A DNA stretch of 34,845 nt from a virus. The DNA lies in the IMG/VR virus record IMGVR_UViG_3300037728_000013, positions 1 to 34,845 of that record; one strand, written 5' to 3'. Positions 2,960 through 30,458 of the stretch are shown here, one piece after another. Both the position numbers and the translations under genes were made by a program. The notes beneath the pieces are model-generated. The model searched no databases, was not told the origin of the DNA, and was given only the letters and a program-made list of their open reading frames with translations. Every line of letters begins with the position of its first letter. The stretch's first letter is position 1.

Positions 2960-3733
2960 TTACTCAAACTCTGTTCCACAGTACGCACAAAACTTCCAAT
3001 TCTTTTTTTGTTTTGCCCCACACTCTGTGCAATACTTCCGGGAACTGTTCTTTTGACTTGCAGGAAGAAGCTTAAACCGAACGGTGTGAAACGAGAAGTT
3101 TTTGAATTTCTCGTTTGTTACGTTGAAGTCTTGTCCGGTTTTCTCTCCCGGCTCAATTCTTCCGGTTTTTAACGTTTCTCCGTCTTTTGAAGAACCGGAA
3201 ATGCTCACGTCTCCGCTAAAGCTGATAGAACTAAAGCTGGAAGTATCCATCCAGATTCTTGGCCTATTTGGGGCAGTCCAAGGATCTCGCTCCCACGGAT
3301 ACGGGTTGATAGGTTTTTTATCTGGATAATCGTCCTTTGGTGGATTCCACGTTATTTGATGTTGCTTATAGAAGTTGACCTCTTTTTCGTAAAACTTAAT
3401 CGCAACTTCACCGTTTTTTTCAATGAAGCGTTCATTTTTTTTCGGCACTTCGTAAGTGCCGAACCGAAACGCTTTATCTTCTCCAATGTACCGTTTTAGA
3501 AACGTGTGTTCTCCGGGTCGTAAAACAAGACCCGAATCAGACGTTTCTCCTTGAATTTTAAGTTTAGCCAAGACCGGATCTTCGGTTGGGTTGTTAAGTT
3601 CTATTTCAAACTGTTGGCCGTCTTCAAGGTACACGTTTTGACCGTTTTCTGTTGGGCGTCGGTCTTTATTTACGGTAATCCATGCTTCCGGCTTTTGACT
3701 TTCGTGTGACGTATATGATTTTGTCTTGTACAT
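2960..3733 (-). CDS. Zinc-ribbon protein of unknown function (257 aa)
   Basis: The C-terminal 25 residues carry a double CxxC zinc ribbon (KYCTECGAKQ then FCAYCGTEFE). The preceding 230 residues look like two beta-sandwich-type segments: residues ~25-115, including GLVLRPGEHTFLKRYIGED, and ~160-225, including SSISFSGDVSISGSS and FSFHTVRFKLLP. They are joined by a proline/tryptophan-rich linker (NPYPWERDPWTAPNRPRIW). The 'LRPGE..FL.RYI' segment reminds me of proteins seen in other large tailed phages, but I cannot name a function. It is a single-gene unit: the start faces the plus-strand neck gene across a 121-base divergent intergenic region, and a terminator follows. Confidence 0.8.
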   Translation of the reverse strand: MYKTKSYTSHESQKPEAWITVNKDRRPTENGQNVYLEDGQQFEIELNNPTEDPVLAKLKIQGETSDSGLVLRPGEHTFLKRYIGEDKAFRFGTYEVPKKNERFIEKNGEVAIKFYEKEVNFYKQHQITWNPPKDDYPDKKPINPYPWERDPWTAPNRPRIWMDTSSFSSISFSGDVSISGSSKDGETLKTGRIEPGEKTGQDFNVTNEKFKNFSFHTVRFKLLPASQKNSSRKYCTECGAKQKKNWKFCAYCGTEFE

Positions 3734-3825
3734 AATTTTGTTGAACGTTTTGCTTCTATCGCTTCATACCCCGAAAAGAGGCATTCTAAAGCCCGAACGA
3801 CTCGCGACTTCCGCATTTTATTCAC

Positions 3826-3836
3826 CTATATATAAC
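3826..3836 (+). promoter_or_regulatory. Late-type promoter box before the first virion gene
   Basis: CTATATATAAC lies 19 bases before the GTG at 3855, in the divergent region between the zinc-ribbon gene and the neck gene. The same CTATATATA core recurs at 6859, 12647 and 16779, each at the head of a transcription unit. The core is nearly palindromic, so it could also serve the minus strand. Confidence 0.5.
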
Positions 3837-3854
3837 TGTAAGAGATAAAAGGTT

Positions 3855-5150
3855 GTGACTTCACAGACGTATTCAAAGAGACTTCATATGGCTGTACCTA
3901 CAAAGTTTGACGGAACGCTTGGAAACCCCGTTGGAAAAACTTCATTTGGCTATTTTGACGGAGATCCGGATTTCATTAAAGACGCCCCCAAAATTGCAGA
4001 TTGGATTGCGCGGCGTCTTGGTTGGCCGACTGTTGATATTGAGATCGATGAAAAAGACCTTTACAACTCCATTGAAGAGGCGATTCTTGAATTTTCAAGG
4101 CTTGTCAACCACCTTAACATCAAAGACAACTTAATCATTCTTCAAGGAAACGAAAAGATTGGTGAATATGAAAACTTAACCGGGAAACACGTCACCGGAT
4201 CTCCAGTCCGGGAAATGGTTCGGCTTGCAAAAGCCTATGGGTCCGAGGTTGGACACGGTGGAAGTGTAACTTGGAGAAAAGATTTCATCAACATCAAACG
4301 CGGAAAACAGCGTTACGACATTAAAAAGCTTTTCAAAGAGAAAAACAGGTCCGGATCTGTTCCAATTGAAGACAGAGAGATCATCATCAAGAAGATTTAC
4401 TACTACCCTCCACATGCCATTGAGAGGCTTTATGATCCATTCTCTGTTGGGGGAGTGGGAACGCTAAACGTTCTTCGAGAACTTGGCTTTAGCGACTATG
4501 GCGTGGCTTCTGAATACCTTATGATGCCAGCGTACCATGATCTTCTTCGCTTGCAAGCGGTTGAGTTTAACGACTTGATTCGACGCTCCGGATATACGTA
4601 CAGACTTACCAACGGAGTGCTTACGATCACGCCGATTCCGGGAACAGAAGACTTTTTTGGTGGAGACGCAATTCCGGAAAACGACGACAACGAAGAACCA
4701 AACCGCTCGTTTCCAAGGAGGATCTGGTTTGACTATGTGTTCAAAGACGAAGCAAACAACGTTCAAGTTGTAGACTCCGATATTGCAAACGTTGTTTCCG
4801 ACTATTCAGATGTTCCATACGACGTTCACCACTACGAAGACATTAACCAACCTTCTAGGCGTTGGATTTACAAATACGCACTTGAAGTTGCAAGACACAA
4901 GCTTGGAACTGTTCGCTCGAAGTACGGAAATTCTATTCCGGGAACCAACGGCGCTGACCTTCAACTTGACGGTGAAAGCCAAAAGCAGGAAGCGCAACAG
5001 AACATGGAACAGCTTGAAAACAACCTAAGAGAACAGCTTGAACAGCTTTCTAGGACAAATCTTCTTGAAGAGCAAAACCAACAGCAGCAAAATCTTCAAG
5101 AAATGATGAACCGGATTCCAAAAAAGATTTACATTGGCTATGGTGGGTAA
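3855..5150 (+). CDS. Virion structural protein, probable neck or head-completion protein
   Basis: This 431-residue protein has an N-terminal segment (APKIADWIARRLGWPTVDIE, followed by an acidic helix with EEAILEFSRLVN and LQGN) that I associate with large-myovirus neck or connector proteins. That is recall, not a search result. The last 60 residues are a Gln-rich coiled coil (QLENNLREQLEQLSR, EEQNQQQQNLQEMM). In order it occupies the place of T4 gene 13, upstream of the gp14-like gene. The start is uncertain: GTG at 3855 follows an A-rich tract, while an in-frame ATG at 3888 would begin MAVPTKFDGTLGN. The 3' end overlaps the next gene by 11 bases. I would expect it at the head-tail junction. 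Confidence 0.6.
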   Translation: MTSQTYSKRLHMAVPTKFDGTLGNPVGKTSFGYFDGDPDFIKDAPKIADWIARRLGWPTVDIEIDEKDLYNSIEEAILEFSRLVNHLNIKDNLIILQGNEKIGEYENLTGKHVTGSPVREMVRLAKAYGSEVGHGGSVTWRKDFINIKRGKQRYDIKKLFKEKNRSGSVPIEDREIIIKKIYYYPPHAIERLYDPFSVGGVGTLNVLRELGFSDYGVASEYLMMPAYHDLLRLQAVEFNDLIRRSGYTYRLTNGVLTITPIPGTEDFFGGDAIPENDDNEEPNRSFPRRIWFDYVFKDEANNVQVVDSDIANVVSDYSDVPYDVHHYEDINQPSRRWIYKYALEVARHKLGTVRSKYGNSIPGTNGADLQLDGESQKQEAQQNMEQLENNLREQLEQLSRTNLLEEQNQQQQNLQEMMNRIPKKIYIGYGG

Positions 5151-10493: not shown

Positions 10494-12620
10494 ATGAAAG
10501 TCAATTTTCCAGACGTATCGGTTGAAGGTGAAATTGTTGAAGAAGAGCAGGTAGTAACTGACGAAACAAGAAGCCTCTTTGTTGGGGGCACCGAAAGAGG
10601 TCCTGCCTTTGTAAAGACCCCGGTTGGAACTGTTGAACAGCTTCACCGGATTTATGGAACTGAAAGTCCAGTTGTAAAAGCGGCAGAAAAACAAATCAAA
10701 GCCGGGGGCGTTCCCCGAATTCAACGGGTCATGGACTCGAAAAGTGAAACCCCCGACACGATTGAACTTACTGACTCGTCTGGAGACGCGCTTTTAGTTT
10801 GGATATATAGGGGTGGCGTTGACAGCCGAACGGTCGAAGCGTCTGGAGACGTTACAAACTTTACACTTACCATTGAGTCAGACCCACCCGGCACAGTTTT
10901 TGAGGAAGTGGATTTGAGCTTAAATGACCAACTTGAAGGATATGTAGAAAGAGAAGATATTGAAGACTTTGAGCTTTACCTTTTCTTTCCGGAAAAGCTT
11001 GAAGACCTTGACGTAGACGAGCCCGTTGACGCAAGTTTTAGAAAAGGGTTGGACCTTTCCTCTCTTTCTCCAAGTAGACCTAAAACTCCGTGGATCACGT
11101 CTGGAGATTTCAATGAAAATTTTCAAAGAGAACGCCTTTTTCGGTTCGTTTTAAACAGTGAAGGAACTGATGAAAACAAGCGGGTGAAGGTGTCTATTAG
11201 CGAAATCAACGAGCAGGAAGGCACCTTCACCGTTGAAGTCCGGGATTTTGAAGATAGCGATTTCAACCCCACCGTCTTAGAGAGATTTGAGCTTTTAAGT
11301 TTAAATGATGGTGAAGATTCAGAGAACTATATAGCCGAGGAAATCGGGGACAAATACAGCTTCTTTAGTGATGGTAGAATAGCAACAACCGGAAGATACG
11401 AAGGGCGCTCTAACTACGTGTCTGTAGAGGTTGCACAAACGGCGTTTCCTTCCGGAGTAGTGCCAAAGGGTTTTGAAGGGTACAAAACCCCATATGCGCC
11501 AAGCCAAAGCCTTCCAGACCCGGTTTACAGAACCACTCAAAGCCTAGGAGACATATCTGATTACGTCGATTTTCCGTTAAGTGAAAGAGACGATCTTTTT
11601 CTTGGGTTTGACGCAAATGTAAAAGACAACATTCAATACTTGAAACCCATTCCCAACGGGGCTTTGTCTTCACCTGACTTTAATTTAGAAGACGCCACAG
11701 ACGTTGTTGAAGAAAAGTTTACCGTGGCGTTTCAAGGAGGCTACGACGGTCAAATCTTAGAAGATGAAAAAAAGACCGGAATTGATGCTACTTCGAATAA
11801 CCTGTATGGAATAACCGAGCTTTCAACGTTTGAAACGGCTTTTGAAATTTTAAATCAAGACTTTACACTTGACGTTGAACTTGTTGTGATTCCGGATTGC
11901 CTACTTGATGTGCATACAAACCTTTGCAATAGCGCAGAGGCGTTTGCACGGGACACAGGAACCGTTCTCTTTGTTGCCGGGTATCTGCCTCCGATTGAAG
12001 ACTTCTCTTCTCTAGAGGACCCAAAAGAAACTCTTGTATCCAGCTACGCAAGCGTTTATCACGGATGGGCTAATGTAGAAGGCAAAACATATCCAATCTC
12101 AAACTTTGTTCCCGCCGGATATTCAAAACACGACAACTCTGTTGGCATTTCAACTGCTCCCGCAGGAGACTCTACAAACCTTACCGTCGAGGACTTAGAG
12201 CGGAACTACTATAGAAACGAAGAAGAACAGTTTCTTCAAAACGGGATTAATTTCGTTTCTGATAATAGACTTGGGATTGTTCTTCAAGGAAACCGAACGC
12301 TTCTCTCTGGAGACGGGCCGAAAACGAAGTTAAAGGTCCGTAGGGGGCTAAACAAAATTAAAAACGAGGTTTCTCAAAGAGGAAGAGAACTTCTTTTTGA
12401 AAACATCAATGAAGACTTAACTTCCGAATACCGAGACTTTATTGAAAACACGCTTTCGGGCTTTCAAAATAACGGCCTTTTAGAGAACTACACGTTCGAC
12501 TTGACTCCACAACCCGACCAGAACCGAATATCGGTAGCAGGTCAGCTTCAATTTACCGGAACCAATGAGTTTATTGACGTAAACTTTGATTTGGTTCGAG
12601 AAGTGGATGTATTTGTATAA
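10494..12620 (+). CDS. Divergent tail sheath paralogue (708 aa)
   Basis: The N-terminus (TRSLFVGGTERGPAFVKTPVGT, then a helix ending IYG) is the typical sheath start, aligning by eye with SGAFVGPTEKGPAFEPVTVES in the sheath at 13023. The middle domain also pairs: TPWITSGDFNENFQRERLFRF against TPWIVSQDLLEEQ...KIQLFRF, and FTVEVRDFEDSDFNPTVLERF against FDVVVRDFGDTDLNQDVLETY. The C-terminal domain is recognisable but eroded: VRRGLNKIKNEVSQRGRELL replaces the better conserved VRRLLIASKKFVRNAAL. It is probably incorporated in, or caps, the contractile sheath, or is a diverged duplicate with another structural role. It follows the gp15-like gene by 3 bases. Confidence 0.75.
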   Translation: MKVNFPDVSVEGEIVEEEQVVTDETRSLFVGGTERGPAFVKTPVGTVEQLHRIYGTESPVVKAAEKQIKAGGVPRIQRVMDSKSETPDTIELTDSSGDALLVWIYRGGVDSRTVEASGDVTNFTLTIESDPPGTVFEEVDLSLNDQLEGYVEREDIEDFELYLFFPEKLEDLDVDEPVDASFRKGLDLSSLSPSRPKTPWITSGDFNENFQRERLFRFVLNSEGTDENKRVKVSISEINEQEGTFTVEVRDFEDSDFNPTVLERFELLSLNDGEDSENYIAEEIGDKYSFFSDGRIATTGRYEGRSNYVSVEVAQTAFPSGVVPKGFEGYKTPYAPSQSLPDPVYRTTQSLGDISDYVDFPLSERDDLFLGFDANVKDNIQYLKPIPNGALSSPDFNLEDATDVVEEKFTVAFQGGYDGQILEDEKKTGIDATSNNLYGITELSTFETAFEILNQDFTLDVELVVIPDCLLDVHTNLCNSAEAFARDTGTVLFVAGYLPPIEDFSSLEDPKETLVSSYASVYHGWANVEGKTYPISNFVPAGYSKHDNSVGISTAPAGDSTNLTVEDLERNYYRNEEEQFLQNGINFVSDNRLGIVLQGNRTLLSGDGPKTKLKVRRGLNKIKNEVSQRGRELLFENINEDLTSEYRDFIENTLSGFQNNGLLENYTFDLTPQPDQNRISVAGQLQFTGTNEFIDVNFDLVREVDVFV

Positions 12621-13022: not shown

Positions 13023-15485
13023 ATGGCTGAAAAACTAGTCTCACCGGGAGTTTTCATAGAAGAAAACGACCGAACATTTCGACAAGCAGGCGTTAGCCAG
13101 ATTTCAGGTGCATTTGTTGGCCCTACAGAAAAAGGGCCAGCGTTTGAACCTGTTACTGTTGAGTCTGCCCAAGAGTATATTGAAATTTTCGGGCAAAGTG
13201 GATCATACACCGACTTTGCGGTTCTAAATTATCTAAGAGACGCCGGATCTGCAACCGTGGTTCGGGTTCTAGGTGGTGGACCTTCTGCAGTTGACGAAGG
13301 TGTTGCCGGATATGTAAGTGATATTTATGAAATCCGCGAGTCTACCGCTTCCGACCTAGGTTCTAGTGACAGCATCACTAACGTAGAGCAGGACGTACTT
13401 GCGCTTCTTGCTCCAACCGGAAATGCTCCTGACGATCTTGACCAAAATATCACGTTAACAGGTGCTGGAACGTTTGATGAATTTGACTTGGAGGTAAACG
13501 GAAACACGTATCGAATTAGCCTAAATCCTTCAAAGTCAAATTACATCAAAGACGTGTTCGGAACAAGTCCGGAAGGCCCAAGAGAAGTTTACGTTCTTGC
13601 AAACTTTCTTGAGCTACATGAAGAGATCCGCGACGAATATACGGGCACTCTTAGCGTGGAGCTTAACGTAAGAGCAGAGACACTTGATTTTGACAATCAA
13701 GGCTTTTCTAATGCTTCTACCCCGTGGATTGTTTCGCAAGACCTTCTTGAGGAGCAGCCGATGATGGAAGACAAGATTCAACTCTTCCGTTTCCACACTC
13801 TTAGCGACGGAAACGACGCAAACCGAGACGTGAAGGTTGCCATTCAAAACGTCCGAACGCCCGATGAAGTTACCGGAAGCGAGTACGGGCTTTTTGATGT
13901 TGTTGTCCGTGACTTTGGGGACACAGACTTAAATCAAGATGTTCTTGAAACGTATACGGACGTAAATCTAAATCCGGAGTCTCCACAATTTATTGCACGT
14001 GTCATTGGTAACAGAAACGTTATCTTTGAAGCAGACGGTGGAACCCGAATCACCGGAGACTACCAAAATAATTCTGAATACGTCCGAGTTGAGGTTAACC
14101 CCGAAGTTGTTCGCGCAAACGAAAACGGAAAGAATGATCAAGCAAATCTTATTCCTTGGGGGTTTGAATCTTACTTGTTTCCATACCAGCTTGATGAACC
14201 TTCCGCTCTTCCACATGGCCTTAAAATCCGTGAAAACCAGTCTAGAGTAGATGCGGATTACGACGCAAGAGATACCGCCGATTGGACACAAGTTGGGCAA
14301 CCCGGAAACAGAACAAGCAATCAAATCCATTATGGGTTTGATTTCACGTACGATTCAAACCTTGTTTACCTTAACCCGACGCAAAACGATCTTGACGTTG
14401 AAGACGTAGATACAGTTTCTACAGACTTTAACTTCTCTAATTCGGTTGGATACAACGCTTCCACCGACGAAAGAAGTTTTGAGCGTCTAGACCAAAGCGA
14501 ACGTAAGTTTATCCTTGGTTTCCAAGGCGGGTTCGATGGAAAAGATATTTCCGTTACCCCTGCCAAGGGAGAAGACATTACGGCTTCAAACACGCAAGGA
14601 TTTGACTGCTCTTCATTTAACGCGCCGGGAAGCCTTTCGTACTTCGACGCATTGAACATTCTTTCAAACAAAGAGCGGTATAACATTAACCTTCTTGTAA
14701 CGCCGGGAATTGTTCAAAGCCTTCACTCTTCAGTTGTTGAAGCTGGCGTGGATCTTGTAGAAGAAAGAAGAGACGTGTTTTACGTTCTAGACGCCGCAGG
14801 CGTTGACGCAAACGTGCAACAGGTCACGCAAGCGGTCGGATCTCTAGACACTTCTTACGCCGGAACCTACTATCCTTGGGTCCGGGCAAGAGACAACTCT
14901 ACAAATCAAATTCTGGAGCTTCCTCCAAGCGTCTTGATTCCAAGAGTGTACGCCTTTAACGACCAAATTGCAGACCCTTGGTTTGCACCAGCAGGTCTTC
15001 AAAGAGGTGGAATTCCGGAAGCACGCGAAACGGTTCGTCGGTTGACAAAAGACGACCGCGACACGCTTTATCAAGCGCGTGTGAACCCGATTATCCAAGA
15101 CTCTGACCAAGGAGTTGTTGTGTTCGGCCAAAAAACGCTTCAAACACAAGCTTCTGCACTTGACCGAATCAACGTCCGTAGACTTCTTATTGCATCGAAG
15201 AAGTTCGTTCGAAACGCGGCTCTTAACTTCACGTTCGAGCAAAACAATCAAGCAACTCGAAACGAGTTTGTGACAACCGTTGAGCCGTTCTTCGATAGAG
15301 TACAGCAGCGAAGCGGACTTGAAAACTTCGAGGTCCAAATGGACGGAGACAATAATCCACCGGAGATCGTTGACCAAAACATTCTTGTTGGAGATATCTT
15401 CATCCAACCAACAAGAACTGCAGAATTTGTTCAAATCGAATTCAACGTTCTTCCAAGTGGGGTTGAATTTGGAGACGAAGGATAA
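13023..15485 (+). CDS. Contractile tail sheath protein, gp18-like (820 aa)
   Basis: The protein has the classic tail sheath organisation. The N-terminus LVSPGVFIEENDRTF and SGAFVGPTEKGPAF leads to YIEIFGQSGSYTDFAVLNYL and TVVRVLGG. A large variable insert (residues ~90-500) follows. The conserved region contains NIPR-like elements (YAGTYYPWVRARD, PRVYAFNDQIADPWFAPAGLQRG), and the C-terminal domain contains VFGQKTLQTQASALDRINVR, FVRNAALNFTFEQNN and FVQIEFNVLP. Sheath subunits stack around the tube and contract to drive it through the envelope. The size is larger than T4 gp18 (659 aa). A start ATG follows an A-rich tract (aaacgaataaa) with no Shine-Dalgarno sequence. This is probably the principal sheath because the conserved C-terminal domain is intact. 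Confidence 0.92.
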   Translation: MAEKLVSPGVFIEENDRTFRQAGVSQISGAFVGPTEKGPAFEPVTVESAQEYIEIFGQSGSYTDFAVLNYLRDAGSATVVRVLGGGPSAVDEGVAGYVSDIYEIRESTASDLGSSDSITNVEQDVLALLAPTGNAPDDLDQNITLTGAGTFDEFDLEVNGNTYRISLNPSKSNYIKDVFGTSPEGPREVYVLANFLELHEEIRDEYTGTLSVELNVRAETLDFDNQGFSNASTPWIVSQDLLEEQPMMEDKIQLFRFHTLSDGNDANRDVKVAIQNVRTPDEVTGSEYGLFDVVVRDFGDTDLNQDVLETYTDVNLNPESPQFIARVIGNRNVIFEADGGTRITGDYQNNSEYVRVEVNPEVVRANENGKNDQANLIPWGFESYLFPYQLDEPSALPHGLKIRENQSRVDADYDARDTADWTQVGQPGNRTSNQIHYGFDFTYDSNLVYLNPTQNDLDVEDVDTVSTDFNFSNSVGYNASTDERSFERLDQSERKFILGFQGGFDGKDISVTPAKGEDITASNTQGFDCSSFNAPGSLSYFDALNILSNKERYNINLLVTPGIVQSLHSSVVEAGVDLVEERRDVFYVLDAAGVDANVQQVTQAVGSLDTSYAGTYYPWVRARDNSTNQILELPPSVLIPRVYAFNDQIADPWFAPAGLQRGGIPEARETVRRLTKDDRDTLYQARVNPIIQDSDQGVVVFGQKTLQTQASALDRINVRRLLIASKKFVRNAALNFTFEQNNQATRNEFVTTVEPFFDRVQQRSGLENFEVQMDGDNNPPEIVDQNILVGDIFIQPTRTAEFVQIEFNVLPSGVEFGDEG

Positions 15486-16823: not shown

Positions 16824-16849
16824 AAAATCAAATGGTAAAATCAAATGGC
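16824..16849 (+). repeat. 13-bp tandem duplication covering the tail tube start
   Basis: Two copies of aaaatcaaatgg(t/c) lie head to tail at 16824-16836 and 16837-16849, identical in 12 of 13 positions. Each contains an ATG (16832 and 16845); only the second opens the tail tube frame, the first reaches a stop after seven codons. The duplicated initiation region may affect loading of ribosomes on the tube gene. Confidence 0.7.
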
Positions 16850-17342
16850 ATTTGAACAACTAGAAGACAACGAACTATTTTTCACGGAGTTTGAACCGAA
16901 AATGCAAAATCGGTTCTACTTCAAGCTTGCGGACTTAAACGTTCCGGCGTACCTTATTAAGTCTGCTTCAAGACCAGAAATCAATTTTAACACCGTTGAG
17001 CTTCCGCACATCAATATAACGCGGAAAGTCAAGGGGAAGGTGTCTTACGGAGACGTTTCACTTACTCTTTACGACCCGATTTCCCCTTCTGGTTCACAAG
17101 CCGTTATGGAGTGGGTCCTCCAACACCACGAGCCAACCACCGGACGTGACGGATATGCTGACGGGTATAAAAGAGACGTTGTGTATAACACCCTTGACCC
17201 GTCTGGAACTCGAATTGAAGAGTGGAAGCTTAAAGGAGCGTTTGTAACGTCTGCTTCATTCAACGAGGCAGGATTTGAAAATGATGCTCCGTTCGAGATT
17301 AACCTAACGCTTGCCTACGATTATCCTGTGCAGAATTACTAA
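16845..17342 (+). CDS. Tail tube protein, gp19-like (165 aa)
   Basis: Length (165 aa, T4 gp19 is 163) and pattern fit the tail tube family: an early strand NRFYFKLADLNVPAYLIKSA, then PEINFNTVELPHINITRKVK, VSYGDVSLTLYDPISPSG, a helix AVMEWVLQHHEPTTG, and a late 'WKLKGAFVTSASFNEAGFEN' with a final beta strand EINLTLAYDY. The protein stacks as hexameric rings to form the inner tube around the tape measure. It has its own promoter box and follows the sheath genes, as in T4. Confidence 0.88.
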   Translation: MAFEQLEDNELFFTEFEPKMQNRFYFKLADLNVPAYLIKSASRPEINFNTVELPHINITRKVKGKVSYGDVSLTLYDPISPSGSQAVMEWVLQHHEPTTGRDGYADGYKRDVVYNTLDPSGTRIEEWKLKGAFVTSASFNEAGFENDAPFEINLTLAYDYPVQNY

Positions 17343-22695: not shown

Positions 22696-23466
22696 ATGGC
22701 AAACTTTGAACCAGAAATTCAATCAAAATCCTTTGAGCTTCCAAGCAAAGGGTATTTTTACGATAAAGACAACCCTTTGGCAAATGGCACGCTTGAAATC
22801 CGGGCCATGACTGCAAAAGATGAAGACATTTTAACAGATCAAAACCTTGCAAAGAAAGGCAAGACGCTTGACCGTCTTTTAGACAATGTGATTGTTACTC
22901 CAATTGATATGGACACAATGCTTTTAGGGGACAAGGCGGCAGCAATTGTGGCTACTCGAATTATCGGATACGGGCAACATTACCAGTTCACCTACAAAGA
23001 CCCGTCCAGCGGAGAAAAACGAAAAGCAAGCGTTGACCTTGTTAACGATTTAAAAGATAAAGAGATTCCGTTTGAAGAGTTTGACAGACACCAGAAAGAG
23101 TTTGACTTTCAACTCCCACAAACCGGATATAACGTGAAATTTAAGCTTCTTCGCCATAAAGACAATGTGGACATGCGTTTTGAAAGAAAGAAGCTTCAAA
23201 GAGACGATGGAACCGAAGGAAACATTACGCTTCGTTTGAAGCACCAAATCGTAGAAATTGAAGGAGACAGAGACGGGTCAACGATTGCAGAGTTCATTGA
23301 CGAGTTCATGCTTGCAAGAGATAGTAGGGCGCTTCGTGAAGAGGTAGACCGAGTAACCCCCGATATTGATCTTACCATTGACGTGTCCACAGACGACGGT
23401 GAAGTTGAAGAGGTTCCGATTCAAATCGAACCGGAGTTTTTTTTTCCTTCCCGGACGGATACATAA
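22696..23466 (+). CDS. Tail/baseplate assembly chaperone, gp26/gp51-like, short form
   Basis: The 256-residue protein begins with the pattern I recognise from the T4 baseplate hub assembly family (gp26/gp51): FELPSKGYFYDKDNPLANGT, LEIRAMTAKDEDILTDQNL and KTLDRLLDNVIVTPIDMDTM. The middle contains a beta segment (YNVKFKLLRHKDNVDMRFER) and a helix (STIAEFIDEFMLARDSRALR). These proteins assist hub and tape measure assembly and are not abundant in the virion. It lies directly upstream of the tape measure gene, the usual place for tail assembly chaperones. The in-frame product stops at 23466 shortly after a run of nine T; the -1 frame continues with convincing protein. Confidence 0.7.
   Translation: MANFEPEIQSKSFELPSKGYFYDKDNPLANGTLEIRAMTAKDEDILTDQNLAKKGKTLDRLLDNVIVTPIDMDTMLLGDKAAAIVATRIIGYGQHYQFTYKDPSSGEKRKASVDLVNDLKDKEIPFEEFDRHQKEFDFQLPQTGYNVKFKLLRHKDNVDMRFERKKLQRDDGTEGNITLRLKHQIVEIEGDRDGSTIAEFIDEFMLARDSRALREEVDRVTPDIDLTIDVSTDDGEVEEVPIQIEPEFFFPSRTDT
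23437..23445 (+). promoter_or_regulatory. Probable programmed -1 frameshift site (T9)
   Basis: Nine consecutive T are read in frame 0 as three Phe codons. A slip back by one base after TTT at 23443-23445 moves translation into the frame that begins SFPDGYIKEVHKEIFQLVYN, whereas frame 0 ends after six more residues. TTTTTTT satisfies the canonical X-XXY-YYZ slippery heptamer. Slippage of RNA polymerase on the same run would also give longer products. A sequencing error in the run is the main alternative. Confidence 0.65.
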
Positions 23467-23837
23467 AAGAAGTTCACAAGGAAATATTTCAACTTGTGTA
23501 CAACGGAAACTTCTCTTGGCACGAAGTTTACTACGAAATGCCAAGAAAATACCGGAGAATGTATGTAAAGCTTCTTGTCGATCAAAAAAAGAAAGAGAAA
23601 GAGCAGATCGAAAAATCCGGGAAAGAAAGTCAAGGAACCGGGCCGGGGCCATACAGACCCGAAGGCGTTCCGGAGTCTTCATCCCCACCAAAGCCAAGCC
23701 CTTCTCCGAAACCTTCCCCGTCAGGTTCAAAACCAGATGTTCCACAACCTTCAAACCAACAGGCGTCTTCGCCGCTTTCATCCGAAGACGCCAAGAAGTT
23801 TCGTAGAAAACTCAAACAAATGAAAGAAGAAACATGA
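23445..23837 (+). CDS. Chaperone extension reached by -1 frameshift (130 codons)
   Basis: The region downstream of the T run, in the -1 frame, reads GYIKEVHKEIFQLVYNGNFS and WHEVYYEMPRKYRRMYVKLL, a pattern like the C-terminal part of gp26-type proteins, followed by a proline/serine-rich tail. The only starts inside it are a GTG at 23496 and later codons, which cut through this conserved stretch, so entry by frameshift from the 22696 frame (about 380 residues in all) is favoured. The stop overlaps the next ATG (ATGA at 23834), which indicates coupling. If no frameshift occurs, this would be a separate short gene. Confidence 0.65.
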   Translation, partial: SFPDGYIKEVHKEIFQLVYNGNFSWHEVYYEMPRKYRRMYVKLLVDQKKKEKEQIEKSGKESQGTGPGPYRPEGVPESSSPPKPSPSPKPSPSGSKPDVPQPSNQQASSPLSSEDAKKFRRKLKQMKEET

Positions 23838-24064
23838 AAAAAGGTAAGCTAACAGAGGGCATTATCTCCGATTTTGTAGACAAGTTCATGGACAAATTTT
23901 TCCGTGGGACCGGGGGGAGAGATCGAGACGAAAAGGTAGAAAAGATCATTCAAAACGACCCAAAACTTCGGCGCAAAGCCCGTGAACTTGAACAAAACGC
24001 ACAGGAGATGGAACAGGCCCTTGAAGATAAGTTGAAGAAAGCAAAAGAAGATCCTCTCTTTTAA
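23834..24064 (+). CDS. Small helical protein before the tape measure (76 aa)
   Basis: The 76-residue protein is coupled to the chaperone extension by an ATGA overlap. It is charged and helical: GIISDFVDKFMDKFFRGTGG, then a coiled coil ending KARELEQNAQEMEQALEDKL. No leader and no membrane segment are visible. In many large phages small proteins of this style sit between the chaperone and tape measure genes, without known role. An assembly partner of the tape measure is possible, inferred from position. Confidence 0.65.
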   Translation: MKKGKLTEGIISDFVDKFMDKFFRGTGGRDRDEKVEKIIQNDPKLRRKARELEQNAQEMEQALEDKLKKAKEDPLF

Positions 24065-24105: not shown

Positions 24106-27100
24106 ATGGCAACATCATTTGAAAAACTTGAATCCTCCCTTGAAGGATATACCCAAAAGCAGGAGGGCACATCCCAAGCCATAACCGAGCTTCAAACAGT
24201 CATTGACGGGTTTGAAGACGTAGAGCAAGAACGTCTTGAATCCGCTAGTCGCCTCTTAGAAAGCTTAGAGAGAAACAACGAACTTCTCTCCCAATCCATC
24301 GATCAAACCGTTCCTAACGCCTTAGCGCGGCTTGAAGATATAAGTGGAACCCCTGCCGGGACTGCAGCCGCAAGTGTCATTGGGGCGCTTCCGGAAACCG
24401 AAAACTTAGAAGAGCTTTCATCTGTCACCGAAGAAGTGGTCGGGTTTATTGACAAATCCACCGAAATTCAAAAGCAATTCAACGAAGGGGCGCTAACTCG
24501 AATCGAGCTTGAAGAAGAGCTTCAAAGCCTTCAAGAGCAAACAACTGAAAATCTAGAAAGACAGAAAAACGTCCAGTCCTCAACTGTTGAAGGAATAAGC
24601 GAGGACGTATCCCAAGCATCTGAACAGTACGGGGAGCTTTCCGGGCAAGTCCAAACGGCAGAAGAGTTTCAAGATGCTTTGAATACCCGTCTTGGGGATT
24701 TTGCCGAGCCTTTAACTGTGGCCTTAGAGAACTTACGTAGCGTAAAAGCTACACTTCTTGGTATTGTAACTTCTCCTTTGGCCGCACTTGTGGCATTGGT
24801 AGGTGGAGCCGTGACCGGGTTTGTGTCTTTGAGTAACCAAACTCAAGATTTTGTTGAAGAAACCGGGCTTGCCGTTGACCAAGCAAGAAACCTAACGACA
24901 CAAATCAACCAAAGCCGAAGCCAAATCGCAAGGTTTGGCACGGAAGTTGAAGAGGTTCAAGCTGGCCTATCTACTCTTATTACAAACTTCGGCACCTTAA
25001 ACAGCGCGGCAGAGTTCCTTGGAACAACATCCGAAGGCGTTCAAAGTGAAATTACGAAGGTGGCAGGTCGTCTTCGAATTGGTGGGGAAGAGGCCGCACA
25101 GCTTCTTACAAACTTCGAGGAGCTTGCGGGGCTTACAGGAACAACCCGCCAAAACCTACTGGAGTCGGCAGAATCCGCTTCAAGAATCACGGACGTTCCA
25201 CTTCGAACAGTCACGCAAGACCTTTCCGAAAACGCAGAAGAGCTTGCAACCTTTTCAAATTCTTCAAGCGAAGAACTTGCAGCCGCTGCAGCACGGGCTA
25301 GAGAACTTGGCACAAACATCGGTGAAGTTGTTGACGCTCAAAAGAAATTCCTAAATGACCTTCCCGGCCAGCTTCAAGCCGTGGGTGAAGCTTCGGCTTT
25401 AACTGGAATTCAATTTGACCAAGCCGAGCTTGCACAGTCGGCCAACGAAGGAACGGCGGCGTTTCAAGACGCTTTGGTAAGCCAGTTTGAAGACGTTGAT
25501 CTTCAAAACCTTCTCCCCTTCCAGAAGCAACAGATTCAAGAGGCTTTTGGGTTTTCAATTTCCCAAATCCAAAGAATTAAAGAGACGACCGAGGCGACCC
25601 AAGGTTCCGCAGAAGATTTAGCGGATTCGATTCGGGAAGGAAAAGTTGGATTTGACCGGGCATTTTCAGAGACAGAAGCGTTTACCGCCCTTCAAGCTCT
25701 TCAAAACGAGCTTTCTGCAGCCGCGTTTACACTTGTTGAAGAGTTTACCCCACTTTTTAAAAATTCAAGTTCGGTTGTTCAAAACTTAACTGAAGCCGTA
25801 AAAGCGTCTATTCCTATATTCCGGCTTTTAGGTGACGGTCTTCGAATCGTCGGTGAAGTTGTTGCATTTGCACTTGACCGGATTGCAGACTTTATCAATA
25901 TATCCGAGACGTTCATTAATTCCCTTGCAAGTGCAGCCGAAACGATGGAGGCTACCGAAAACAGAACCGCAAGTTTAGCCTCTGTGTTTTTCGGGCTTGT
26001 GGACGCTACTGTTTTTCTTGCCAATAAAACGTCTGAATTTTATAACGAGTTTGTTAGTTTTCTTGGAATTGAAGAGGAATTTGAGTCGTTTGTTTCAACG
26101 GTCGTTGGTGGTTTTGAAACTTTTGCAAGCTACCTTACCGGGGGCGTTCTTCTTGGCGCTCTTACGTTCTTTACCGGACGCGCAATTAAACGGTTCTTTA
26201 CGTTCGGGGACGCGGTAGAAGAAGTGGCAGAAGAAACAGCAGAGTCAGTTGGAAATTCTTCAAAAAGCATCTTCGAGGGGCTTTCTAAGTCCATTACAAG
26301 CTTTGTGGACGGTCTTTCCGACGTTATTAACTCTGTCATTGACCTTGTAACTTCTGGCCTTAAAACGCTTCTCTCTGGCCTTGGACAAGCAATAAGCGCG
26401 TTTGGAAAGGCTCTTACCCCACTCGTTAACCCGGCAGTTGCAGGGGGAATCGCTGTGCTTACAGGTGCATTGATCGGTATCGGTGGAGCAGCTCGTCTTG
26501 CAGCCCCTGCCATTGATACCCTTGGTGAAGTTTTGATTAGCCTGTTTGATAGCTTACAACCTGTTCTTGAAACACTAGCCGGGGGAGTTGCGGATCTGTT
26601 CCGGGACTTCGGAGAGGCGCTTGTAACCTTAGCTGAACAGGCGGTGCCTCTTGCGGATACTTTCATTGACGGTTTCCTTCGTGTTATCGACCAAATTGGA
26701 GATAGCGTAGCGGGAGTTCTTGACACAATCTTCTCAGGAATTGTAAGCGTTGCAAATGCAGGTCCACAAATTGCGGTGGCTGCAGGAGGGATCACTCAAC
26801 TTGCAGCCGCGTTTACGACCCTTACCGCAAGTGGAATCATTCAAGGCTTAACAGATTTTGTTGGGCTTGGATTTGTCGGTCAACTTGAACAGATCGCTTC
26901 GTTTGCAGAACCTTTGAACATCGTTGGAGTCGCAATTGACCGGGTAGCTTCCGGGTTTGAAAAACTTTCCGAAATTGACGTTGCATCGGTTGGAAGCGAA
27001 CTCGCCCAATCGGTTGAAGATATTTCCGGGAATGAAGCCGTTGTTGAAGCCATTGGAGCGGCAGCGCCACAAACCACAACCGAAACCCCGACAACTGCAG

Positions 27101-27297
27101 GAGCAGAAGCTGGCGGTGGTGGTGAAGGAGGAACGGACATGTCCGATACAAATGGGCTTCTTCAACGCCTTGTCCAGCAAAATCAAACGCTTATTCAAGT
27201 TATTGCCGAGCAAACCGATATTAATCTTGATTCGGAGAAAGTTTCAAAGACGCTTCGAAATTCAAACAGCGCGAATACTTTGAAAAGCAATATTTAA
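24106..27297 (+). CDS. Tail tape measure protein (1063 aa)
   Basis: This is the longest gene of the window together with the tube-cap gene, located after the chaperone pair and before baseplate genes. The first ~200 residues are coiled coil (ERLESASRLLESLERNNELL). A hydrophobic segment at ~215-240 (LLGIVTSPLAALVALVGGAV) and another at ~775 (AVAGGIAVLTGALIGIGGAA) fit membrane-active parts of tape measures. Alternating helical and small-residue-rich segments follow, then a Gly/Thr/Pro-rich linker (ETPTTAGAEAGGGGEGGTDM) and a short terminal helix. It sets tail length and is expelled during infection. At the usual ~0.15 nm per residue a tail near 160 nm would be expected. It is about 1.8 times the size of T4 gp29. 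Confidence 0.82.
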   Translation: MATSFEKLESSLEGYTQKQEGTSQAITELQTVIDGFEDVEQERLESASRLLESLERNNELLSQSIDQTVPNALARLEDISGTPAGTAAASVIGALPETENLEELSSVTEEVVGFIDKSTEIQKQFNEGALTRIELEEELQSLQEQTTENLERQKNVQSSTVEGISEDVSQASEQYGELSGQVQTAEEFQDALNTRLGDFAEPLTVALENLRSVKATLLGIVTSPLAALVALVGGAVTGFVSLSNQTQDFVEETGLAVDQARNLTTQINQSRSQIARFGTEVEEVQAGLSTLITNFGTLNSAAEFLGTTSEGVQSEITKVAGRLRIGGEEAAQLLTNFEELAGLTGTTRQNLLESAESASRITDVPLRTVTQDLSENAEELATFSNSSSEELAAAAARARELGTNIGEVVDAQKKFLNDLPGQLQAVGEASALTGIQFDQAELAQSANEGTAAFQDALVSQFEDVDLQNLLPFQKQQIQEAFGFSISQIQRIKETTEATQGSAEDLADSIREGKVGFDRAFSETEAFTALQALQNELSAAAFTLVEEFTPLFKNSSSVVQNLTEAVKASIPIFRLLGDGLRIVGEVVAFALDRIADFINISETFINSLASAAETMEATENRTASLASVFFGLVDATVFLANKTSEFYNEFVSFLGIEEEFESFVSTVVGGFETFASYLTGGVLLGALTFFTGRAIKRFFTFGDAVEEVAEETAESVGNSSKSIFEGLSKSITSFVDGLSDVINSVIDLVTSGLKTLLSGLGQAISAFGKALTPLVNPAVAGGIAVLTGALIGIGGAARLAAPAIDTLGEVLISLFDSLQPVLETLAGGVADLFRDFGEALVTLAEQAVPLADTFIDGFLRVIDQIGDSVAGVLDTIFSGIVSVANAGPQIAVAAGGITQLAAAFTTLTASGIIQGLTDFVGLGFVGQLEQIASFAEPLNIVGVAIDRVASGFEKLSEIDVASVGSELAQSVEDISGNEAVVEAIGAAAPQTTTETPTTAGAEAGGGGEGGTDMSDTNGLLQRLVQQNQTLIQVIAEQTDINLDSEKVSKTLRNSNSANTLKSNI

Positions 27298-27341: not shown

Positions 27342-30300
27342 ATGGCTCTTTTTGATAATTTAGATGAAAATTCAGAGGTTCCGGGAACGCCAGAGAAAAC
27401 ACAGGTTCCGGAAACAGACCCGGATGTGCGTCTATCGAAAGAAACGTCCCCGAAGCGACAGGACCCGCGTGTTAACAGACCAAAGAGTGAAGGACCGAAG
27501 CTAAAAGATCCAAGAGTGAGTAAAGCTTCACAAACCGGGGTAGACCGAAGCGATTTTTCTAACCGAAACGCTCCGGATACCGAAGGGCCAAAAGAAAAAG
27601 ATCCTTCCATTCCAAGACAAAATCAAGAGCAGGTCCAAAGAAAAGAAAGGTATAACATCGGGCAAATCAACCAAACTCCAATTGAGCCAAAAACCTATTC
27701 GTTTGAAAGCTTAAATCAAAGAGGCGTCGAGCCTCAAGAGCAAAATTTAGATGAAGCAAGACAAACAGGTGTTCAAGAAAAAGAAAACCTTGGCGTTGAA
27801 GAAACGCAAAACGAAGGCGTTTTATTTCAAAATGTAGTAGAAGGGGTTGAAGTCCCCGATTTTCAAGGGCCGCAAGAACTTGACCCGAATGTAGAAGATG
27901 TAGATGAAAATAGACAAACTGTTCCAAGCCGAGAAATTGACGTAACAGAGTCTTCAAACTTCGGGGTGGAGAGAAACGTAGATATCGGCGTCAATTCAAA
28001 CGTTGACCAGTCTCCACCTAAAAACGAAAGGCAAGACTCCGGGCTTGTCGAGTCCCAAACAAGAGTTGAAAATGTTCAACCTGACGTTTCCCTGTCTTCG
28101 AATCTTGGGGTAAACGAAAACCAAGACACCGTTTCTTTATCTTCAAATCTTGGAGTGGTCGAGTTTGACGTTGAACTTTTTCGTTTGGATCAAACACCGA
28201 TCCGGCCCCCAAATGTTCGTTTTGAACTTCAAGATCAAACAAAAATTGATCCACGTTTGATTGACTCGATTGATTCTTCTCCGTCGAATACGGGAGTTGA
28301 AGCCCCAAGTGATCTTGGAGTTCCCGTGGCAGAAAATACGGGGGTAGAGATTCCCGAACCAGACGCGGCGTTTCCAAATGAGGTGGATGTTGGGGAAGCA
28401 AACATTGTTCCACTTTCAGATCCTCTTGATCTTCAAATTCCAAGTCAAGAGCTTATTGATCCAACTGTAGAGCGAGATTTCCCCCAAGAAGTTTCAATTG
28501 AGCCTGTAGAAAATACAGAAGTTGACCTTGCAGAAGACGTTGGCGTTGAAGAACAGGCAGTTTCAATTCCTCTTCAAAATCAAAACCAAGTTGAAGACCT
28601 TCGGCCACAAATCGAAGAAGCGGAGGAAACTCAACTTCAAAACGTGGAAATCGAAGGCATTTCTCCGGTAGAAAACTCTGGAAACATCCCACTTGAAGAG
28701 CTTGAAATTGAAGAGGTAAACGTAGAATATGACCAGTCTGGAGAGGTGCCTACTTTTCCGGAAGAAATTTTACTAGACCGATCCGAGCTTCCGGGGCTTC
28801 CAACTCCACAAAGCCTTCAAGAAAGAAACGAGCGGTCAAGAGATCGTGAGTTTGAGCAGTTTAGCCTTTCAAATGGGTTTTTGGATCAACCGTGGATCAC
28901 CACACGGCCAGACGACCCAAGAACAAATCTGTATGAAGGAAGCAGGGTAGTTCCGGGGAGAGAACATGCAGAAGACCAAGTTCGTCTTTCAAAGTTTCTT
29001 GCATCCCCGCGTGGAATTTTGTTTAATGCAAAGCAGTCTACCCTTCAAACACAAAATACAAGAAGGCTTACAAGAATTTACGACCCCGCTGCACTTCGAA
29101 ATTCGGCACTTTCTTATCTTGTTTCCGATACCCGCCACGTATCGGCAGGAGAAGGGCTTTTAGGAAGCCTTGTGAGCCGCTTAGACGGGCTTACAAGTTT
29201 TGTTAGTGGCCTTAGTGACCTTCCAAAAGACAGCACGAGAGAAGAAGAAATAAGGGCCTTAACAGATGGTCAAGGATATCTTCGAAACCAAACCCCAAGG
29301 TTTGAAGGAGAAGGGCTAACGGGGGCTCAATATAGAGAACGAGCACGCCAAGCGTTAGCGGATCAAGTTGAAGACCTTCGCCCGGATTTTTACACGCTTC
29401 AGCCTAGAGGTCCCCGCAGGCTTCAACGCGATAGGCAAGAAATTCTTGAAGGGTCAAGAGACTCCTTCATCGGAATGAAACCTATAACAAGCACCGAAAA
29501 GGTTGGTGAAGGCCCACTTGGAACGCCAATCACAAGAGAAACCGAGACGTTTGATACATATAACCCGCTTCGGACAAGAGAAGATTTTCTTGAAAACTTC
29601 GAAGACGGTGAAAGTCCAATTACCGAAAAAACGGTCGAAGACGAGTCGGATCTTTCCAAAGAACAGTTTAACCCGTATCCAGACGTTGTTCGGGGCGAAG
29701 AGCCGGGACCAGATGAAGGCGTTCCGAAAGATGAAAACTTTGAGCCAGAAGACGGCTACTTCATTCTTTACAGAAGAGAAGGAGACGCTTCGTATGGGTA
29801 CCCGAACTACTCTAGCGAAGAAAAGTTTGAAGACCTTGTAAATTCAAAACCAATTGAAGAGTATCAAACGACAAACGGAGAAATTGACGATTCCGAGGTA
29901 CTTACCGGACCAAACGGTGAAGAGTTTAAAGACGTGGTCCCGTTTCGCATTTACGATCTAATTAATAGAAGGCGTCTTATTTTTCGCTCGTATCTTCAAG
30001 GAATCTCTATATCTAACGAAACGAACTGGAGTTCCAACCAGTATGCCGGAAGACCGGAAAAGTATCACATCTACGGTGGAAATAGCAGGTCCCTTTCGTT
30101 TAGCTTTTCTACGTTTGCACAAAGCGAAAAAGAGTTTGAAAACCTTTGGGACAAAATCAACTACTTAAATGGCCTTGTTTATCCGTCAAACATTCAAACG
30201 CTTCGAGGTGGTGGAGCTTATATGCTTGCCCCGTTTTTGAAAATTACGTTAGGAGACCTTTTAAACAAATGGCCGGGGTTCTTTCAAAGCTTAGATATTA

Positions 30301-30458
30301 GTTTTCCAGACGAAAGCCCTTGGGAGACTAGAAGTGGAAGAAGACTTCCAAAGCAAGCGGACATAAGTTGCACATACACCCTTATCGAAAGAGAGTTTCC
30401 AAACACCGGAGACAGACTTTTTGACGGTTCGTTTATTCAAGATTTTGATAATGCATAA
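27342..30458 (+). CDS. Baseplate tail-tube cap (gp48/gp54-like) with a long acidic repetitive arm (1038 aa)
   Basis: The last ~170 residues carry the fold pattern of tail-tube initiator proteins: IFRSYLQGISISNETNWSSN, then KYHIYGGNSRSLSFSFSTFA, YMLAPFLKITLGDLLNKWPG and LDISFPDESPWETRSGRRLP. This kind of protein caps the baseplate and starts tube polymerisation. The first ~500 residues are acidic, Gln/Asn-rich and without aromatic core, built on recurring [NQ]-x-G-V tetrapeptides (QTGV, NLGV, NFGV, NTGV) and D/NQT-x-I phrases, so they are probably a disordered arm. Residues ~505-860 form an Arg/Pro-rich middle. T4 gp48/gp54 are about 320-360 residues, so roughly 650 residues are extra. Confidence 0.72.
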   Translation: MALFDNLDENSEVPGTPEKTQVPETDPDVRLSKETSPKRQDPRVNRPKSEGPKLKDPRVSKASQTGVDRSDFSNRNAPDTEGPKEKDPSIPRQNQEQVQRKERYNIGQINQTPIEPKTYSFESLNQRGVEPQEQNLDEARQTGVQEKENLGVEETQNEGVLFQNVVEGVEVPDFQGPQELDPNVEDVDENRQTVPSREIDVTESSNFGVERNVDIGVNSNVDQSPPKNERQDSGLVESQTRVENVQPDVSLSSNLGVNENQDTVSLSSNLGVVEFDVELFRLDQTPIRPPNVRFELQDQTKIDPRLIDSIDSSPSNTGVEAPSDLGVPVAENTGVEIPEPDAAFPNEVDVGEANIVPLSDPLDLQIPSQELIDPTVERDFPQEVSIEPVENTEVDLAEDVGVEEQAVSIPLQNQNQVEDLRPQIEEAEETQLQNVEIEGISPVENSGNIPLEELEIEEVNVEYDQSGEVPTFPEEILLDRSELPGLPTPQSLQERNERSRDREFEQFSLSNGFLDQPWITTRPDDPRTNLYEGSRVVPGREHAEDQVRLSKFLASPRGILFNAKQSTLQTQNTRRLTRIYDPAALRNSALSYLVSDTRHVSAGEGLLGSLVSRLDGLTSFVSGLSDLPKDSTREEEIRALTDGQGYLRNQTPRFEGEGLTGAQYRERARQALADQVEDLRPDFYTLQPRGPRRLQRDRQEILEGSRDSFIGMKPITSTEKVGEGPLGTPITRETETFDTYNPLRTREDFLENFEDGESPITEKTVEDESDLSKEQFNPYPDVVRGEEPGPDEGVPKDENFEPEDGYFILYRREGDASYGYPNYSSEEKFEDLVNSKPIEEYQTTNGEIDDSEVLTGPNGEEFKDVVPFRIYDLINRRRLIFRSYLQGISISNETNWSSNQYAGRPEKYHIYGGNSRSLSFSFSTFAQSEKEFENLWDKINYLNGLVYPSNIQTLRGGGAYMLAPFLKITLGDLLNKWPGFFQSLDISFPDESPWETRSGRRLPKQADISCTYTLIEREFPNTGDRLFDGSFIQDFDNA

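Follow-up and report, generated by a model that had tools for sequence, protein, structure and literature searches.

In phage lambda, the tail assembly chaperone (TAC) is made in a short form, gpG, and a long form, gpGT, by a -1 frameshift near the end of a gene that lies upstream of the tape measure gene. In the model of G/GT function, the tape measure protein is bound by the shared N-terminal part, and tube subunits are recruited by the additional domain (PMC5009743). The same 2016 review of recoding described G/GT frameshifting as conserved "except T4". In T4, the short and long forms, gp26 (208 aa) and gp51 (249 aa), come from two genes, and both proteins are members of PF12322/phrog_150. 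As cited in PMC10885494 and PMC12846349, Vladimirov, Gautam and Davidson (Virology 2022;566:9-15) reported that T4-like phages carry a short and a long TAC gene, and that the TAC-N genes of some of these phages have poly-T -1 sites. Poly-T -1 sites in TAC genes are described for T4-like, Vandenendeviridae and Andersonviridae phages in PMC12846349.

In this study, a stretch of 34,845 nucleotides (IMG/VR virus record IMGVR_UViG_3300037728_000013, positions 1 to 34,845; the window) was analyzed. It carries one gene of the T4 family in which a conserved second domain follows a run of nine Ts in the -1 frame. The arrangement is that of lambda gpG/gpGT, a likeness of layout rather than of demonstrated sequence similarity, and the site is poly-U, unlike the lambda type. 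A T-rich -1 site at the end of TAC-N is shared with the phages of PMC12846349, but the window has nine Ts instead of GTTTTT and sits in a clade of +1 genes. The gene can be read as a T4-type TAC made in two forms, the long one through a frame change on the nine-U run that is most likely a -1 ribosomal shift; the probability of this reading was put at about two in three. An earlier note on this DNA had proposed a programmed -1 shift here and had taken it to link the T4 baseplate chaperones to the frameshifting TACs. The link held. Its novelty did not, because the short and long TAC pair of T4-like phages had, as cited in the two papers above, been reported in 2022.

Short Form and Position of the TAC Gene

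The short form is encoded in frame 0 at 22696-23466 on the plus strand (256 aa), and its C-terminal end is ...PEFFFPSRTDT followed by the stop. The frame-0 protein scored 30.3 bits against the PF12322 (T4_baseplate) profile and matched phrog_150 with an E-value of 1.9e-13. The curated PF12322 cut-off of 24.5 was exceeded, so the protein belongs to the PF12322/phrog_150 family and is a homologue of T4 gp26/gp51, as had been recognized from the sequence alone. Its identity to phage homologues was 45-46%. The record, which is 34.8 kb long and may be only part of a genome, had one PF12322 copy.

The AlphaFold model of the short form had a mean pLDDT of 89.6. When this model was searched against BFVD by Foldseek, the matches were SP-15 and other baseplate-hub proteins. 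In VIA-align comparisons with the PDB, residues 1-97 of the core matched YqbN (3klu) with a Z of 5.8 and the HK97 tail assembly chaperone (2ob9) with a Z of 5.1, in a range (Z < 8) that can reflect a common arrangement. All other PDB neighbours had Z < 3 (next best 2.6), and the Foldseek E-value for the TAC-fold comparison was above 0.5. The 3klu and 2ob9 matches suggest a TAC-like fold for the modelled core.

The gene lies between the tail tube gene (16845-17342, plus strand; phrog_4542, E 3.5e-28) and the tape measure gene (24106-27297, plus strand; tail and tape measure families phrog_1204, phrog_991 and phrog_305, E 3.5e-13 to 3.4e-12), which is the location of G/GT-type genes. The tail sheath gene is at 13023-15485 on the plus strand (phrog_23, E 1e-66; PF04984). 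Several small ORFs precede the TAC gene at 22696, and one ORF of 76 aa follows it at 23834-24064 on the plus strand. The gene product is a T4-type tail assembly chaperone. The earlier claim of a chaperone just upstream of the tape measure gene was supported as to the role, with the 76-aa ORF intervening between the two genes. By eye, the ORF after the TAC gene of relative L003 (4046-4288) resembles the 76-aa ORF, and L004 has a small CDS (4036-4251) at the same place.

Frame Change at the Nine-T Run

The junction reads GAG TTT TTT TTT CCT TCC CGG ACG GAT ACA TAA in frame 0. The run contains exactly nine Ts (23437-23445, plus strand) and includes, in frame, the heptamer U_UUU_UUU, which has the X_XXY_YYZ form of -1 ribosomal frameshifting sites. 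Six sense codons follow the run, and the short form ends at the TAA at 23464-23466, in agreement with the earlier note that frame 0 stops soon after the Ts. From 23409 onward, the -1 frame meets no stop until the TGA at 23835-23837. Because frame 0 stops at 23466, the frame change must fall within 23409-23466. In the fused translation, slipping by -1 on the run gives a long form of 380 aa that contains both parts, with 130 aa past the shift (23445-23837, plus strand).

A second-domain HMM was built from 160 relatives, with the window left out. Among 1029 six-frame segments of the window, it matched the -1 frame alone, with an E-value of 4.7e-19. Judged by this match, the -1 frame encodes a real domain, as its well-formed translation had indicated. 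The position of the nine-T run coincides exactly with the frame-change point of the relatives, where TTT TTT TGG is nearly invariant. The locus combines a shared N-terminal part with a conserved out-of-frame extension that overlaps the gene end, as in G/GT-type genes, and it is a genuine recoding site in a T4-type TAC. A search for non-pseudoknotted stimulatory RNA structure downstream of the run gave none that beat shuffled sequences (z -0.24 and -0.74). Such structures are common in programmed -1 frameshifting and are not obligatory.

Relatives and the +1 Clade

The relatives found by tblastn were Flavobacterium phage immuto, Microcystis phage Mel-JY01, Streptococcus phage GXN1, Listeria phage LIS04, Bacillus phage SP-15, and two uncultured jumbo phages. 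Where annotated, their gene order was sheath, tube, TAC, and tape measure. All seven have another short ORF that runs across the gene end out of frame; it is +1 in six and -1 in LR756511. The exact core peptides of the window retrieved nothing from the viral contigs, and the first alignment (A1) was too diverse for searching; relatives were found with alignments and with the second domain. The tblastn and IMG/VR searches yielded 175 distinct informative genes, including the window.

The second domain was out of frame in all 175 genes, +1 in 170 and -1 in five (the window, L008, L057, L095, and L101). The earlier note had held that relatives with a single unbroken gene would speak against its reading; no fused gene was found among the 175. 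It had also expected relatives to keep the T run and both frames. The T run and both domains were kept, but the direction of the shift was not. L057 (about 3726-3860) is close kin of +1 phages, and its second domain is -1 after a longer linker with an ATG; it may represent re-initiation or another direction switch.

The junction was TTT TTT TGG CCT in 126 genes, TTT TTT TAC CCT in 22, TTT CTT TGG CCT in 5, and TTC TTT TGG CCT in 4. The third codon was TGG in 136/175, and in the rest of the protein Trp accounted for only 19 of 41,984 residues. The feature common to the +1 sites was YUU U, with UGG or UAY as the codon after YUU. A stop no more than 12 nt before the Phe codons closed the second frame in 70 of the 175 genes and so confines the shift to the Phe-codon site. 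With the exception of one gene, the frame-0 stop came at most six codons from the FFxP motif.

The natural reading of the +1 relatives is that the P-site tRNA would slip +1 before a slow codon. The RF2 (prfB) +1 site is CUU UGA, in which the slow codon is a stop. The +1 phage relatives resemble it in having YUU before a presumably slow codon (UGG, UAC), which in their case codes for an amino acid. The window does not share their +1 direction. The junction of L005, UUU CGU, is that of the influenza PA-X +1 site, UCC UUU CGU (PMC3498833). No description of a +1 clade on UUU UGG was found in the open-access papers searched. The clade provides a large natural collection of bacterial-phage +1 sites that are almost identical (UUU UGG), in a protein that has hardly any other Trp.

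In public records, the second-domain fragments were separate hypothetical proteins or were left unannotated (L002 3818-3928, L007 3797-3916, L095 3388-3510, L098 3154-3330, L099 3190-3369, and L101 2956-3075). Database entries called "hypothetical proteins" that follow baseplate-hub genes are in many cases parts of a TAC long form.

The Window as a -1 Exception

In the maximum-likelihood tree, the core protein of the window was nested in the +1 clade with a support of 100/99, adjoining L003. This placement suggests that the -1 state of the window is probably derived. The +1 clade (immuto, SP-15, and IMG/VR contigs) is characterized by YUU U(GG/AY), whereas the window is -1 and has TTT as the third codon. 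Most relatives have TGG at this place; the TTT of the window brings the run to nine Ts and generates U_UUU_UUU. A third-codon TTT was associated with the -1 direction (2/6 genes, against 3/169 of the others; Fisher p 0.009); the sample is small and contains the doubtful L057, and kinship is ignored. The extra base that makes the window -1 falls in the T run in one alignment and just downstream of it in another, made by eye, that is equally good. No relative closer than about 46% identity was found to confirm the nine-T/-1 state.

Two features are unusual: a -1/nine-T state within a clade of +1 genes, and the presence of -1, +1, and duplication in one family. None of the open-access papers searched appeared to describe a -1/nine-T site nested in a +1 clade. 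The window is a probable case of changed shift direction.

Relationship to T4 gp26 and gp51

gp26 ends where the short form ends, and gp51 has an added C-terminal extension. A profile was made of the -1 second domains of cyanophage S-CAM8, Rhizobium phage RL2RES, Delftia phage PhiW-14, Vibrio phage phi-Grn1, and Salmonella phage Mooltan. In profile-profile comparison, this profile matched the gp51 C-terminus with P 1.8e-8 (0/150 column shuffles) and the +1 second domains with P 4.1e-9. The direct match between the gp51 extension and the +1 second domains was weaker (P 2.4e-4, 0/150 shuffles). Comparison by profile and profile was required, as the second-domain sequence-profile HMM matched gp51 only weakly (E 0.2-1). 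phrog_150 matched the S-CAM8 -1 ORF at profile positions 227-276 with an E-value of 0.0015. From these profile comparisons, the second domain is judged to be homologous to the gp51 C-terminal extension, which is absent from gp26.

T4 has the same family of proteins as the window, with PF12322 over the cut-off, but takes its two forms from two genes, whereas the window has one gene and a frame change. All six genomes with two PF12322/phrog_150 copies (T4 and five T4-like phages) had a short and a fused long gene; one copy ended near profile position 236 and the other reached 281-282. All 18 single-copy genomes had an out-of-frame second ORF. Vibrio phage phi-Grn1, which belongs to the Straboviridae as T4 does, retained a single frameshifting gene. 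In the tree, gp26 and gp51 clustered together (support 99/91), in keeping with duplication. T4's two genes now stand beside relatives with one frameshifting gene, one of them in T4's own family, and this proximity makes a change from frameshift to duplication testable. Four of the five distant -1 sites were NNT TTT TTC or NNT TTT TTG, that is, U UUU UUC/UUG; the Mooltan site, GAA ATT TTC, was less clear.

A wider reading, offered tentatively and at a little less than even odds, is that there is one TAC family in which the long form is conserved and the means of making it flips. The -1 shift would be made on U UUU UUC and the +1 shift on U UUU UGG, and T4-like phages would rely on gene duplication. 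In the window, where a nine-U run has taken the place of UGG, the +1 shift would have reverted to -1 or given way to RNA-polymerase slippage.

Proposed Mechanism and Alternative Explanations

In the proposed mechanism, most ribosomes would stay in frame 0 and stop at 23464, and their product would be the gp26/gpG-like short form of 256 aa. A minority would shift on the nine Us, where the likeliest event is that two Phe-tRNAs slip by -1 in tandem on U_UUU_UUU; these ribosomes would also translate the second domain and produce the gp51/gpGT-like long form of 380 aa. If the roles are those of lambda G/GT, the N-terminal part common to both forms would bind the tape measure protein, and tube subunits would be recruited by the extra domain. 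We infer that it is the ribosome and not RNA polymerase that slips, as well as the direction of the slip, the ratio of the forms, and the chaperone action. Counting against this mechanism are the +1 direction of the clade to which the window belongs, the failure of downstream RNA folds to beat shuffled sequences, and the +1 arrangement of L023 and L035, two relatives that also have nine Ts. Of the programmed -1 shift that had been claimed, the frame change between conserved domains was supported; a -1 ribosomal shift is its likeliest mechanism, and nine Ts also favour slippage of RNA polymerase.

Transcriptional slippage is the main rival, although an unlikely one. RNA polymerase would add a U on the nine-T run, and the ten-U mRNAs would encode the long form with no slip of the ribosome. 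Runs of nine As or Ts cause efficient slippage of bacterial RNA polymerase in vivo (Atkins et al. 2016, PMC5009743). The run is the only one of nine in the window and its longest A/T homopolymer (the runner-up is 8 Ts at 3435), and seven Ts are usual in the +1 relatives (150/170). However, most relatives shift at runs of two to seven Ts, which are too short for this process, and the ribosomal mechanism is therefore probably ancestral. Two relatives with nine Ts, L023 and L035, are both +1.

An error in the contig, with one base too many or too few, was considered improbable. The true gene would then be +1 or fused. Homopolymers are error-prone, 170 of the 175 genes are +1, and the record is a metagenomic virus without a close relative. 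It had been stated earlier that 8 or 10 Ts would place both parts in one frame, which proved incorrect for 8: only 10 Ts would fuse them. With 8 Ts, frame 0 would stay open to 23806, about 120 codons, against an extension of at most 19 codons in the relatives. The fused gene given by 10 Ts was seen in no single-copy relative. The architecture of the family is obtained with nine Ts only, and the readings with 8 or 10 Ts were rejected as less consistent with the relatives.

It is very improbable that the second domain is a separate gene, expressed by re-initiation or coupling, and not a C-terminal extension, although databases list the pieces as separate hypothetical proteins. In the -1 frame of the window, no ATG, GTG, or TTG precedes the conserved domain; the earliest possible start, GTG 23496, lies within it, which bears out the earlier remark that this frame lacks a good start of its own. 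Among the 175 genes, 77 had no such start before the domain and only 26 had an ATG. Re-initiation was rejected on these missing starts, and the same domain is fused in gp51 of T4-like phages. A non-functional gene broken by a frameshift mutation, which the departure from the relatives' direction might suggest, is just as improbable, as both domains are conserved and open and the frame-0 stop is at its conserved place.

Other Features of the Window

Two tandem sheath-like proteins of 708 and 820 aa are encoded at 10494-12620 and 13023-15485, the first of which is only weakly similar to phrog_23 (E 1.8e-14, against 1e-66 for the second). An ORF of 1038 aa (27342-30458) directly follows the tape measure gene and had no PHROG or Pfam match. 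On the minus strand, 1079-2842 encodes an SNF2-type helicase (PF00176, E 2.3e-31), possibly a UvsW counterpart.
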